Source of the DNA: a virus
Strand: one strand, 5' to 3'
IMG/VR virus record: IMGVR_UViG_3300042923_000322
Coordinates: 1-22,224 of that record
DNA length: 22,224 bases
Shown here one piece after another: positions 1,721-5,367 of the stretch. Under the pieces are notes generated by a model. That model had not been told where the DNA came from. It saw nothing but the letters and a program-made list of their open reading frames with translations, and searched no databases. A program made the translations under genes and the position numbers. The stretch's first letter is position 1, and every line of letters starts with the position of its first letter.

Positions 1721-1927
1721 ATGAACATGAGCCGACTTAGGGAACTGTCGCTGCATGAGCCAATCGTCCACGTATATATGATGCACCACAAAACCGGAGA
1801 AATGACTTTAGAGGACTCTATGGTAAGCATGATTGAGACGCTTGTTGCACAAAAGAAGCAGTATTTCGATGAACTGGTAAAGTATAAACAGCGATTCGGG
1901 GAGGTGGAAGTCCGTGAACCGAGATAA
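1721..1927 (+). CDS. hypothetical protein (68 aa)
   Basis: The start ATG is preceded by GAGGTGA (1708-1714) at good spacing. The 68-residue product is Met-rich at its N-terminus (MNMSRLRELS) and helical and charged in its second half (AQKKQYFDELVKYKQRFGE). It has no membrane segment. Its 3' end overlaps the regulator gene by 14 bases, and the regulator's ribosome site (GGGGAGGTGG, 1898-1907) lies within its coding sequence. Translation of the two is therefore likely coupled, and the small protein may take part in the same control circuit. I do not recognise its family. Confidence 0.7.
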   Translation: MNMSRLRELSLHEPIVHVYMMHHKTGEMTLEDSMVSMIETLVAQKKQYFDELVKYKQRFGEVEVREPR

Positions 1928-2381
1928 AGTAACGGAACTGCTGAAGAATTATCGCAGCTACAAATACGCCGTGAAGAACGGGGAGTCGGAAGCTCTCAAC
2001 TTTGGATTTCGAATCATCCCGTTCGTCAACTCGGACCGAACGATAACCGTGAACCAATGGGACTTCGAACGGTATTCGCGGATCGTATCCATGATCGACG
2101 GAGCTGTCCGGGAAGTGTTGTCGGATGACGAGCAAAAGGTGATCGAATACAAGTACCTGGAACGGAATACACTGTACATTCATCAGATCGCAGATAAGTT
2201 CCATATGAGCGAACGGAAGGTAACATACCTGCACAAGAAAGCGTTAAATTCGTTGGCGAATGCTCTGGCGTTTGTTGAAGTGCCAGACATCCACAATATC
2301 GACGAATACCTTGATAATGCGCCTATGTTGGCGGTATCGGGTTTGCATCGATCCGACCGAATCAGCGCGAGCCGTATATAG
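1914..2381 (+). CDS. ArpU/RinA-like phage transcription regulator (sigma-region-4 HTH)
   Basis: The start is GTG, preceded by a strong GGGGAGGTGG site. The product has 155 residues. Residues 69-115 (LSDDEQKVIEYKYLE, then IADKFHMSERKVTYLHKKAL) have the layout of sigma-70 region 4: an acidic helix followed by a helix-turn-helix with a conserved E-R-K-V-x-x-L-H/R-K-x-A pattern. This layout and length are typical of the ArpU/RinA/LmaC family of late regulators in phages of Gram-positive bacteria, which activate transcription of packaging and structural genes. Its position fits: it is the last gene before a repeat-rich control region and terminator, with the late operon immediately downstream. The C-terminal 35 residues are not recognisable and contain part of a 16-bp DNA repeat. 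The family call is fairly firm, but the exact mechanism (activation or antitermination) is not settled by the sequence. Confidence 0.8.
   Translation: MNRDKVTELLKNYRSYKYAVKNGESEALNFGFRIIPFVNSDRTITVNQWDFERYSRIVSMIDGAVREVLSDDEQKVIEYKYLERNTLYIHQIADKFHMSERKVTYLHKKALNSLANALAFVEVPDIHNIDEYLDNAPMLAVSGLHRSDRISASRI
2346..2361 (+). repeat. 16-bp direct repeat, copy 2
   Basis: This is the second exact copy of CATCGATCCGACCGAA (first at 1617-1632). It lies inside the last codons of the regulator gene, 20 bases before its stop. Confidence 0.4.
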
Positions 2382-2393
2382 ATTTTGTACATT

Positions 2394-2438
2394 TCTTGCG
2401 CACATCTTGCGCCCTAATCATGATAATATTAGATCATG
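2394..2438 (+). promoter_or_regulatory. candidate late promoter/operator region
   Basis: TCTTGCGC occurs twice, at 2394-2401 and 2405-2412, exactly 11 bases apart, so both copies lie on the same face of the helix. An inverted repeat follows: CATGAT (2419-2424) and ATCATG (2433-2438). GATAAT (2422-2427) could be a -10, but spacing to either TTGCGC (20 or 9 bases) is wrong for unaided polymerase. That would fit a promoter needing an activator. The regulator gene just upstream is the obvious candidate. A 10-base palindrome, GGGAGCTCCC (2452-2461), follows. The elements are seen directly; the promoter role is inferred. Confidence 0.45.
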
Positions 2439-2473
2439 GGGAAGTTGATCGGGGAGCTCCCGGCGTACCCAAG

Positions 2474-2525
2474 AGAGAGCGATACGTAACTACGCTATAG
2501 AGCGTACATCGTATTCGCTCTTTTT
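2474..2525 (+). terminator. strong intrinsic terminator ahead of the late operon
   Basis: An outer stem pairs AGAGCGATACG (2476-2486) with CGTATTCGCTCT (2510-2521), leaving one bulged base. Inside it is a perfect hairpin, TACGCT-ATAG-AGCGTA (2491-2506). TTTTT (2521-2525) follows immediately. The terminator stands between the regulator and the first late gene (start 2540), so late transcription must either read through it or begin after it. No promoter-like sequence is visible after it. Confidence 0.85.
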
Positions 2526-2539
2526 GATTAGGAGAACCA

Positions 2540-2722
2540 ATGAAAAGAGACATATACAGACGTAGAGCCATGCAAATAGCACTAGCGAAGCTTCAGGAAC
2601 GGATTGACCGAGGCGAGGTAGAGAATCCGGAGGAACGGATAGAGCAGATCAAGCGGGCGTTTGGGGGTGAAGATGATGGAAGAAGAGACATTCAAGATGG
2701 AACTGACAAAGGATCAAGTTGA
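2540..2722 (+). CDS. hypothetical protein (60 aa), first gene of the late operon
   Basis: The start ATG follows TTAGGAGAACCA, a good ribosome site (AGGAG, 2530-2534) directly after the terminator T-run. The 60-residue product is very rich in Arg, Glu and Lys (MKRDIYRRRAMQIALAKLQ, RIEQIKRAFGGEDDGRRD) and probably forms one or two helices. The last 50 bases overlap the next gene in another frame. I do not recognise the family. Small charged proteins at this position, just before terminase, are common in phages, and some act in DNA packaging. That role is only a possibility here. Confidence 0.65.
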   Translation: MKRDIYRRRAMQIALAKLQERIDRGEVENPEERIEQIKRAFGGEDDGRRDIQDGTDKGSS

Positions 2723-3216: not shown

Positions 3217-3229
3217 GTGGTGAATGGAT

Positions 3230-3646
3230 ATGGCTAAGCAAGGGCAGAAGCTGACGGACGAGTTGAAAGAGCAGATTCGCGCTCACCTTGTCCTTAGCGA
3301 TAATAAAAATGAGATCGCAAAGAAGCTTAAGGTGTCTTGGGCAAGTGTCGATAAGATCGCAAAGGAAATCGAAGAATTTCCCGAAGAAGAAGAAAAGTTC
3401 GAGAATCTTCGAGAACAGAAAAAGTTGCAGATGATTGATAAGCTTTGGGAAAACATGACGGATGCGCTGGAGCTTGGGCATGACATTGTGAAGAAGGCGA
3501 AGAAAGGCGATGTCGATGTGCCGTTATCACATATCAGCACGTACTATGGAACTTTGTATGACAAACATGCATTGATGACTGGTGGAAAGACGGCTGATGT
3601 AGGATTGAGTTTCGAAGACCAACTTCGAGGGTTGATTCAAAAATGA
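3230..3646 (+). CDS. terS: terminase small subunit-like DNA-binding protein
   Basis: Two ATGs are close together, at 3224 and 3230. The ribosome site AGGTGG (3215-3220) is 3 bases from the first and 9 from the second, so I chose 3230, giving 138 residues. The N-terminal third carries a helix-turn-helix (KLTDELKEQIRAHLVL, NEIAKKLKVSWASVDKIAKE) like that used by small terminase subunits to recognise the packaging start. A long acidic, coiled-coil-like middle (EEFPEEEEKFENLREQKKL) follows and could form the oligomer ring. The C-terminus is shorter and less ordered. The gene overlaps the large terminase by ATGA (3643-3646). Position and architecture support the call. Sequence similarity among small subunits is generally low, so the family is not certain. 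Confidence 0.75.
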   Translation: MAKQGQKLTDELKEQIRAHLVLSDNKNEIAKKLKVSWASVDKIAKEIEEFPEEEEKFENLREQKKLQMIDKLWENMTDALELGHDIVKKAKKGDVDVPLSHISTYYGTLYDKHALMTGGKTADVGLSFEDQLRGLIQK

Positions 3647-5367
3647 GCGTGCTACGAGAGTTGGTCGACGACTATCGTCTATACTTCAAAAGTTGCTTAA
3701 AAATCAGGAACAAGGATGCTCAGATTGTTCCATTCGAAACGAACGAAGCGCAGGATCGGTTGCTTAAGATCATTGAGGATTGGAAAGCGTCGGAACCCGA
3801 TGAATCGAAGCGACCGACATTATATATCATTATCCTAAAAGCGCGTCAGCTTGGCTTTAGCACAGCCACAGAGGGCGTTTTTTTTCATGACCTGAACTTT
3901 GGATTCAACAAAGTCGCTATGATCGTCTCGTTTGACGAAGATTCGGCAGTGACAATAAACGATATGTCAGACCGGTTCTATAAGTATTTGCCGCAGCCGA
4001 TCAAACCGAAGCGAAGGCCGAGCAGAGGAAAAGGCATTCTGTTTGAGAACCCACGGTTCAACGATGCGCTGCCAATCAGCAAGGAAAACGACCCCGGCCT
4101 TCAAAACAAGTTTCTGGTTGAGACGGCCAAAAACCTAAACGCAGGGTCATCGTACACGATCAATTACTTGCATATATCGGAGCTTGCAAAATGGGATAAG
4201 CCAGAAGAAACCATGACATCGATCATGCAGTCGGTGCCGGACTTTGGCGCGATCGTCATTGTTGAAAGCACGGCGAAGGGCATGAACTACTTTCAGGAAT
4301 TGTGGGATAACGCAGAGCGAGGTAATAACAACTTTGTCCCATTGTTCGTTGCGTGGTTCGAAAATCCAAGGTATCGGGCAAAATACACAGGTTTCGAACT
4401 AACGGAATACGAGAAGCAGATTAAAGAGATATACGCCCTCGATGATGATCAGCTGCAATGGCGGCGCAATACGATCAAAGACAAGCTTAACGGAGACGAA
4501 CAGCTATTCAAACAAGAATACCCTTGTTGCCCGGAAGAATCGTTCTTAACGACCGGCACGCCGGTATTTAACAACGAGGTTGTTATCCAACGAATTCGCC
4601 ATCTGGAGAAGAATCCAATTGGCACAAGAGGACATCTGAAGTATCTCGGAGACGATAGGAAGCTAACCTTCGTGCCTGACGAATCGGGATTTATAACCGT
4701 GTTCAAACATCCTGAAAAAGACCGTCCATATGTCAGCGGAAATGACGTCGCCCAAGGCGTAGAGAATGGGGACTATGATGCCTCCCATATGACTGACAAC
4801 GTTACTTTGGAGCAAGTCGCTGTATTACATGGGCACATGGACGTCGACTTATATGCCGAGGAATTGTACAAATTCGGCCAGTACTACAATTGGGCATTGT
4901 TGGGTCCGGAAGTGAACTTCAACCCGGGCATTGTAATCAATCTTGAACGTCTCAGGTACCCGAAGTTGTATCTGCGCCAGGACATTCACACAATCAGCAA
5001 AGATATAAAAATGGTGTTCGGATGGCTAACTGGTATGGCGAATAGAAATGCGATCATATCCGACTTGGTCGAATTTGTGCGTGAGAATATTCACCTCATC
5101 AACCACATCCCTACGCTGAAAGAAATGCTCACATTTATTCGAAATAAACAAGGGCGTCCAGAAGCGATGTCAGGGAAAAATGATGACCTTGTCATATCGC
5201 TGGCTATCACACTGGCAATACGACATCAGCAAACAAGTTCGGTTGAAAAGTCGTGGAAAGTCGACATATCGAAGCTGCCGCAGGACTTACAAGAAGATTA
5301 CAACCGAGCTTCACCAGACATGAAGCAATACCTTGCTAAAAAATGGGGATTGGTGAAAGGGGCATAG
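3643..5367 (+). CDS. terL: terminase large subunit (packaging ATPase and nuclease)
   Basis: This is the motor that pumps DNA into the prohead and cuts the concatemer. The 574-residue length is normal for the family. The N-terminal ATPase has a variant Walker A, KARQLGFST (residues 66-74), and the acidic site in LHISELAKW (176-184, Glu180) typical of terminases that have S-E rather than D-E. A coupling-motif region, IVIVESTAKG, follows at 204-213. The C-terminal RNase H-like nuclease shows GNDVAQGVENGDYDA (366-380), with a metal-binding Asp at 368, and a late Asp pair in GKNDDLVISL (511-520). The start overlaps the small subunit stop (ATGA), with GAGGG (3627-3631) upstream. The portal begins 4 bases after its stop. 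The call is firm; the packaging mode (cos or headful) is not determined. Confidence 0.95.
   Translation: MSVLRELVDDYRLYFKSCLKIRNKDAQIVPFETNEAQDRLLKIIEDWKASEPDESKRPTLYIIILKARQLGFSTATEGVFFHDLNFGFNKVAMIVSFDEDSAVTINDMSDRFYKYLPQPIKPKRRPSRGKGILFENPRFNDALPISKENDPGLQNKFLVETAKNLNAGSSYTINYLHISELAKWDKPEETMTSIMQSVPDFGAIVIVESTAKGMNYFQELWDNAERGNNNFVPLFVAWFENPRYRAKYTGFELTEYEKQIKEIYALDDDQLQWRRNTIKDKLNGDEQLFKQEYPCCPEESFLTTGTPVFNNEVVIQRIRHLEKNPIGTRGHLKYLGDDRKLTFVPDESGFITVFKHPEKDRPYVSGNDVAQGVENGDYDASHMTDNVTLEQVAVLHGHMDVDLYAEELYKFGQYYNWALLGPEVNFNPGIVINLERLRYPKLYLRQDIHTISKDIKMVFGWLTGMANRNAIISDLVEFVRENIHLINHIPTLKEMLTFIRNKQGRPEAMSGKNDDLVISLAITLAIRHQQTSSVEKSWKVDISKLPQDLQEDYNRASPDMKQYLAKKWGLVKGA

Follow-up and report, generated by a model that had tools for sequence, protein, structure and literature searches.

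The window, by which we mean the whole 22,224-nt stretch of viral DNA analysed here, has a small regulator gene immediately ahead of its terminase operon, the arrangement of Ltr/Alt-type late control regions. The gap between the stop of the regulator gene at 2381 and the next gene at 2540 contains every element (direct repeats, an inverted repeat, a palindrome and a terminator) that an earlier reading, made from the sequence only, had described there as a possible late-gene switch (Table 1). The first gene after the gap has 87-93% nucleotide identity over 126 nt with its counterparts in the related loci L004, L002 and L038, and is far more conserved than the regulator. A relative of the product of the probable small terminase gene is encoded in L005, directly before terL. 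Related loci came from searches with the regulator, the large terminase and a leader pattern, and from bacterial genomes and viral contigs searched with an alignment of regulators. Since all six named genome matches are Paenibacillus, the host is probably of Paenibacillus type.

Table 1. Features between the regulator gene and the large terminase gene of the window.
Feature	Position	Strand	Remarks
Late regulator gene	1914..2381	+	155 aa, C-terminal half sigma-region-4-like; PHROG matches, AF2 model
Repeat 1, TTGTAC	2385..2390	+	11 bp upstream of repeat 2; phased repeats in relatives
Repeat 2, TTGCGC	2396..2401	+	inside TCTTGCGC 2394-2401
Repeat 3, TTGCGC	2407..2412	+	inside TCTTGCGC 2405-2412
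Predicted extended -10	2421..2429	+	TG 2421-2422, hexamer TAATAT 2424-2429; TGnTA frame kept in relatives
Class A leader RNA	2433..2481	+	core hairpin UGGG 2437-2440 / CCCA 2468-2471; model R2 match 77 bits
Palindrome GGGAGCTCCC	2452..2461	+	apical hairpin of leader RNA; fold and comparison
Nested-hairpin intrinsic terminator	2473..2525	+	T5 at 2521-2525; fold
First gene after terminator	2540..2722	+	60 aa, no family match
Probable small terminase gene	3224..3646	+	precedes terL; HTH-like N-terminus, weak HTH matches only
Large terminase gene	3643..5367	+	PHROG 2 terminase large subunit, E 6.9e-27; start of packaging and structural operon

The regulator and a phased promoter

The regulator belongs to PHROG 248 ("transcriptional activator"), which it matches significantly over most of the profile (E 7.6e-14, residues 3-122 on positions 22-141 of 161), and it also matches PHROG 36 (E 3.7e-12). 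Its Sigma70_r4 match is under the Pfam cut-off, and its scores against ArpU (TIGR01637, 26.1 bits vs 43.1) and RinA (TIGR01636, 25.0 bits vs 31.9) stay below the NCBI curated cut-offs; by sequence, it is a remote relative of these two families. The AF2 model has a core pLDDT of 91-98 and its structural matches include sigma region 4, with Z of about 8 to 8.8, in agreement with the sigma-region-4-like character previously assigned to the protein. Q21 is absent among the structural matches listed, which is no evidence of absence. The modelled fold would fit a protein reading -35-like hexamers.

The two copies of TCTTGCGC, 11 bases apart, were located as reported and have no further copy in the window on either strand. 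The word by itself is unremarkable, as at least two copies arise in 23 of 100 shuffles, and the pair is meaningful because of its 11-bp spacing and of the comparison with relatives. The sequence-only reading was correct on these two copies and overlooked a third repeat, TTGTAC, one helical turn upstream. The pattern TTGNNC repeated three times at 11 bp, which was picked after the site had been seen, occurs once in the window and in none of 300 shuffles. The same reading rightly noted that no -35 hexamer lies 16-18 nt from GATAAT (2422-2427); TGa-TAATAT is the better candidate for the -10 element itself, being the form conserved in relatives. From its position, transcription would start at about 2436, and the hexamer repeats span about -51 to -24 relative to this predicted start.

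Taken alone, the promoter of the window is weak evidence of periodicity (lag-11 p about 0.01). Periodicity was measured over the 60 bases upstream of the -10, first in 14 promoters and then in 35 distinct ones. Both tests reject a chance origin of the phased promoters: among the 35, self-identity at 11 bp is 0.424, compared with 0.267 after shuffling and a maximum of 0.295 in 500 shuffled sets, and an echo is found at 22 bp. The TGnTA motif precedes the leader in 27 of the 35 (background 1.65%). The repeated hexamers, read by eye, vary from phage to phage (TTGCGC, TTGCAC, TTACCG, TGTCCG, TGCATC and others), and the promoters of L049 and L044 show no clear 11-bp period. Direct repeats upstream of the -10, as in Ltr/Alt-type systems, are thus a property of the 35-promoter set, and the earlier view of the repeats as a plausible activator site gains from their phasing. 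The promoter anatomy is well supported as that of an activator sitting on one face of the helix and replacing the -35, and we infer that the regulator is what binds the repeats.

The 6-base inverted repeat (CATGAT 2419-2424 / ATCATG 2433-2438) is present and overlaps the extended -10 and the start site. Its proposed part in the switch is not supported: by eye, relatives keep its words and not their full complementarity, which speaks against a conserved operator or anti-leader arm, and it looks incidental at the sequence level. Many relatives have, by eye, a TAnnAT-like word 3' of the -10.

Two leader RNAs and a terminator

The window is 96-98% identical to L002, L004 and L038 in the stretch of about 95 nt that begins at the predicted start, compared with 55-62% over the 47-nt promoter and 57-58% for the regulators of L004 and L002 (the L038 contig ends before the regulator). 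In these sequences, conservation starts at the predicted transcription start site. Class A has four distinct leaders, those of the window, L003, L039 and L075; in each, UGGG/CCCA closes, by eye, a hairpin on a perfect palindrome. These palindromes are GGGAGCTCCC, GGGCATGCCC, GGCATGCC and GGAGTACTCC, those of L003, L039 and L075 occupying the place that GGGAGCTCCC has in the window; in the variant L029 the palindrome is broken by one base (by eye). Four distinct forms are too few for a covariation test. The 10-base palindrome of the sequence-only reading is therefore real as a sequence, and what changes is its nature, since comparison indicates that it is the tip of a conserved leader-RNA hairpin and not a separate DNA site.

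Model R2 of class A was built partly from the window sequence, and its match there is not independent. Its 13 matches in 392 genomes include two next to a regulator, L074 (already known) and L075; the other 11 were rejected as false, as they lack the regulator, and most of them share one conserved, coding-looking stretch. Rfam 15 gives nothing at gathering score in the window and nothing at E up to 1 for 2380-2560. Among 50,697 records of isolated phages, the regulator has zero matches and the leader no convincing one, and no leader match was found among plasmids. The leader is a conserved RNA for which we found no description in the open-licence literature; a report outside it could exist.

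The nested-hairpin terminator claimed ahead of the late operon is borne out by folding: 2430-2530 reaches -38.5 kcal/mol vs -25.2 ± 3.1 in shuffles (z -4.3, with none of the 200 folding as stably), and the T5 tract is in place. A simple terminator scan does not list it. Under a rule that counts as a terminator any hairpin with a U-tract, a dG of -12 or lower and a place no more than 555 nt past the leader, one follows the leader in 30 of 32 loci, compared with 8 of 60 segments drawn at random from these loci. The rule fails in L003 and L068, and its relaxed form recovers L003. In the 30 loci the terminator is always downstream, with 32-321 nt from the leader RNA to the first U-tract, which indicates that RNA and terminator are separate modules and not alternative folds. 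A terminase homolog lies downstream in 24 of 30 loci, and 9 of 30 have at least two intergenic terminator-like sites ahead of the terminase. Beyond the leader, terminators are not enriched on the late strand: a permissive scan of 86.6 kb counts 46 on the plus strand, leaders included, vs 37 on the minus strand.

In other related prophages the same place is taken by an unrelated RNA, class B, which forms a long hairpin whose tip, UAGCU...UGCGCAG, hardly varies. In an alignment of 28 distinct sequences, which was fitted to the model and is thereby biased toward the structure, 97.1% of the cells are paired (85.4 ± 0.8 in shuffles), double changes affect 15 of 21 pairs (8.3 ± 1.4) and double-change cells number 73 (19.9 ± 4.0), a value reached in none of 500 shuffles. 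Sliding the partners by 1-3 columns lowers pairing to 37-49%. A MAFFT alignment of seven class B sequences, free of model fitting, still has double changes in 10 of 21 pairs. These compensatory changes show, at the level of sequence, that the class B fold is under selection, and the comparison with 500 shuffles rejects a chance origin. No Rfam match at gathering score was found in the class B loci L040, L042, L053, L048, L068, L069, L071 and L073. The leader RNA elements are 49-62 nt long, with two folds.

These observations bear on another view of the gap, namely that the terminator merely ends the early operon containing the regulator, that the late promoter lies further downstream and that the repeats and the leader have no late role. 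The terminator does stand directly behind the last early gene. However, a phased extended -10 promoter precedes it in the window and in relatives, and the compensatory changes reveal selection on the class B fold, so that we consider this view improbable.

Linkage to the regulator, exchange and inserts

The 20 regulator loci retrieved by the regulator-alignment search comprise 13 of class B, 5 of class A and 2 of neither; in the class A count, L045, L046 and L009 are represented by L002, L003 and L004, of which L003 matches weakly (E 0.0088). In L050 a regulator is present and neither leader class was found, and L043 matches neither leader model. Searches with the class B model R1 gave a single match in each positive genome; positive were 5 of 75 genomes of one genus, 3 of 104 of one family and 15 of 392 at the order level, while 398 Bacilli genomes at the class level gave 3 matches, all already found in the order search; the four genome sets overlap. 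In the class B genome loci that these searches yielded, L058-L073, a regulator homolog is found upstream on the same strand in 16 of 16, 4 of which come from genomes already chosen for their regulator.

A 20-base pattern retrieved 50 loci from IMG/VR, 34 of them with full-length R1 matches of at least 48.5 bits; L111 has a partial match (25 bits). The regulator lies upstream in 33 of these 34, and in all 33 contigs where this could be tested, as L127 has only 30 nt of upstream sequence; some of the 34 contigs had previously been met through the regulator and not all are independent. None of the 16 other pattern matches has it. The distance between class B and the regulator is mostly within about 120 nt, the longer ones being found in L094 (524 nt), L101 (202), L103 (1196) and L128 (263). 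On the regulator tree, where L043 was entered as class B by eye even though R1 does not match it, the RNA class changes at least three times, two of these changes being forced by well-supported branches. Hence, a regulator matched to the RNA is not required.

Several late leaders contain further elements. Nine distinct loci have tRNA-Leu-like shells in their late leaders, with paired acceptor, D-arm and T-arm and with interiors of 56-116 nt that differ by phage: L003 (3601), L005 (1950), L007 (1384), L041 (6660), L042 (6566), L053 (5542), L054 (3126), L069 (1701) and L123 (minus strand, 1255 on that strand); L006 has one at about 1130 by eye. With one regular expression, they were found only in late leaders among the fetched loci, and neither ARAGORN nor Rfam calls a tRNA in the shells scanned. 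They are possibly interchangeable RNA cargo. In L003 (3574-3808) such an insert lies inside the class A hairpin, flanked on both sides by a 12-base duplication, ACGGGGCATGCC, which would leave the outer stem able to enclose the insert.

Genes are inserted as well: L002 and L051 have homologous ones (74% over 103 aa) just 3' of the leader terminator, and in L051 a second strong terminator stands behind the inserted gene. In L053, L063, L066 and L072, the leader terminator is directly followed, by eye, by a consensus-like promoter (TTGACG..TATATT or TATATATT) with GTCGTACATACGAC and then by a small gene, which looks like a repressor-controlled cargo gene. Two other elements recur. CGACCGAA occurs at 1625 and 2354 of the window and, by eye, in L003, L038, L042 and L049; followed by a variable middle and by GGCCGA or GCCGTA, it forms a short element recurring between genes of these phages. 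A near-identical stretch, GTGGTTAATAACACGCACGGGAAAAACCCCTCTCAACGATGGGAGCTAACCCGACCACTAACCGT, is found in L068 (about 1590-1680) and L003 (about 3410-3500); one phage has it past the leader RNA and the other ahead of the promoter, and neither locus has an Rfam match.

The variable tRNA-like RNA between leader and terminator in several relatives, together with the position of the leader at the very 5' end, would suit a switch by activation only, in which leader and terminator form a small stable RNA, acting in trans or protecting the mRNA as a 5' hairpin, and spontaneous read-through of a leaky terminator suffices. Known late activators with direct repeats work in this manner, as in the available part of the account of phi13 Ltr (PMC13123087). 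Yet the strong terminators, which persist in 30 of 32 loci and are doubled in some, would throttle the most heavily expressed operon, and we regard this explanation as unlikely.

A proposed two-step late switch and known systems

We favour, with a confidence that stops a little short of even, a late switch in two steps that joins an activator-dependent promoter to an exchangeable leader RNA carrying polymerase past the terminator. In the first step, the regulator would bind the three hexamers one helical turn apart and recruit the host polymerase to an extended -10 promoter without a proper -35. In the second, the transcript would open with the conserved folded RNA and reach the strong terminator within about 90 nt; the leader RNA would act in cis on the polymerase, and only the modified polymerase would pass, the terminator shutting the operon to unmodified ones. 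The sequence-only reading had set activation and antitermination as alternatives, and the anatomy fits both together; its observation was right and understated, and its interpretation is partly supported. Comparison shows that the leader RNA is conserved (class A) or covarying (class B), of which antitermination would be the best, if unproven, reading. The main weakness of the two-step switch is that read-through polymerases arriving from the regulator gene would likewise transcribe the leader, so that an RNA acting alone would leak unless it has to stand at the 5' end or requires the regulator.

Stopping such read-through polymerases is best explained if the regulator is itself a Q-like antiterminator, which loads via the hexamers and rides the polymerase past the terminator, the RNA being accessory or having another role. 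The regulator may share the sigmaR4-like fold of Q21, which binds 6-bp direct repeats in the part of the work accessible to us (PMC6606751); it weakly matches PHROG 79, "anti-termination protein Q-like" (E 0.0028, sigmaR4 region only), and a terminator does follow in the 30 loci. Yet here at least three repeats at 11 bp reach about -51, while the same source describes two for Q21, with tested C:G pairs at -21 and -13 (PMC6606751); a Q-type system would call for a binding element between -35 and -10 and a -10-like pause element among the first transcribed bases, for which the TAnnAT-like words are at most candidates, and the covarying RNA and its two exchangeable folds are left unexplained. We hold this reading to be rather unlikely.

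Extending the two-step switch to the group, we tentatively propose, as a possibility well short of even, that Paenibacillus phages have two gates on their late genes, a sigmaR4-like activator and a processive antiterminator made of RNA only, with which the late transcript begins and which has at least two unrelated folds exchanged between phages. Between this antiterminator and the terminator, the leader would then be a place where tRNA-like RNA cargo lands, genes and additional terminators being added behind. If true, RNA-mediated antitermination would join the Gram-positive phage late switch, for which the described mechanism, in the accessible parts of the sources cited, is activation. The leader RNAs are small, well-defined elements that can be tested on Gram-positive RNA polymerase, and the linkage of leader and regulator offers a way to mark the late operons of Paenibacillus prophages by computation.

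The promoter would be a further case of a known late-activator type, and activation, by analogy, matches the Ltr/Alt/RinA systems. Ltr of phi13 from S. aureus is a late activator with direct repeats, and Alt of TP901-1 is cited alongside it (PMC13123087). As far as that source is available, Ltr, Alt, RinA and ArpU have in common with the window a small gene for a sigma-like regulator that immediately precedes the late operon, and direct repeats upstream of the -10 with the late operon downstream (PMC13123087). The repeats of phi13 are 18-bp ones, whereas the window has hexamers at 11 bp, and unlike the phi13 Ltr account, in whose accessible text the word "terminator" is absent, the window has a structured leader RNA and a terminator (PMC13123087).

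A conserved structured RNA near the 5' end and upstream of terminators, as found here with class B covarying and class A conserved, is the mark of RNA antiterminators. In the available part of one source, put (HK022), EAR (B. subtilis eps), canT (Tn916) and conAn2 with ConAn1 (pLS20) are likewise early folded RNAs of long transcripts, upstream of terminators (PMC11658703). The activity of canT needs 341-452 nt, a length to be compared with the 49-62 nt of the leaders (PMC11658703). Unlike these four, the leaders belong to phage late operons, have two unrelated folds, are linked to an activator and have no Rfam match, and their antiterminator activity is putative. Finally, Q21 of lambdoid phages is a sigmaR4-like protein on 6-bp direct repeats, as would be the case here (PMC6606751), and GafY/GafZ of the Caulobacter gene transfer agent join activation and antitermination at one promoter (PMC11150451). 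Compared with what the accessible parts of these two sources describe, the window has another repeat spacing and position, an RNA element, and one regulator gene instead of two. By analogy, Q21 and GafYZ may thus be seen as functional parallels of the switch proposed here.
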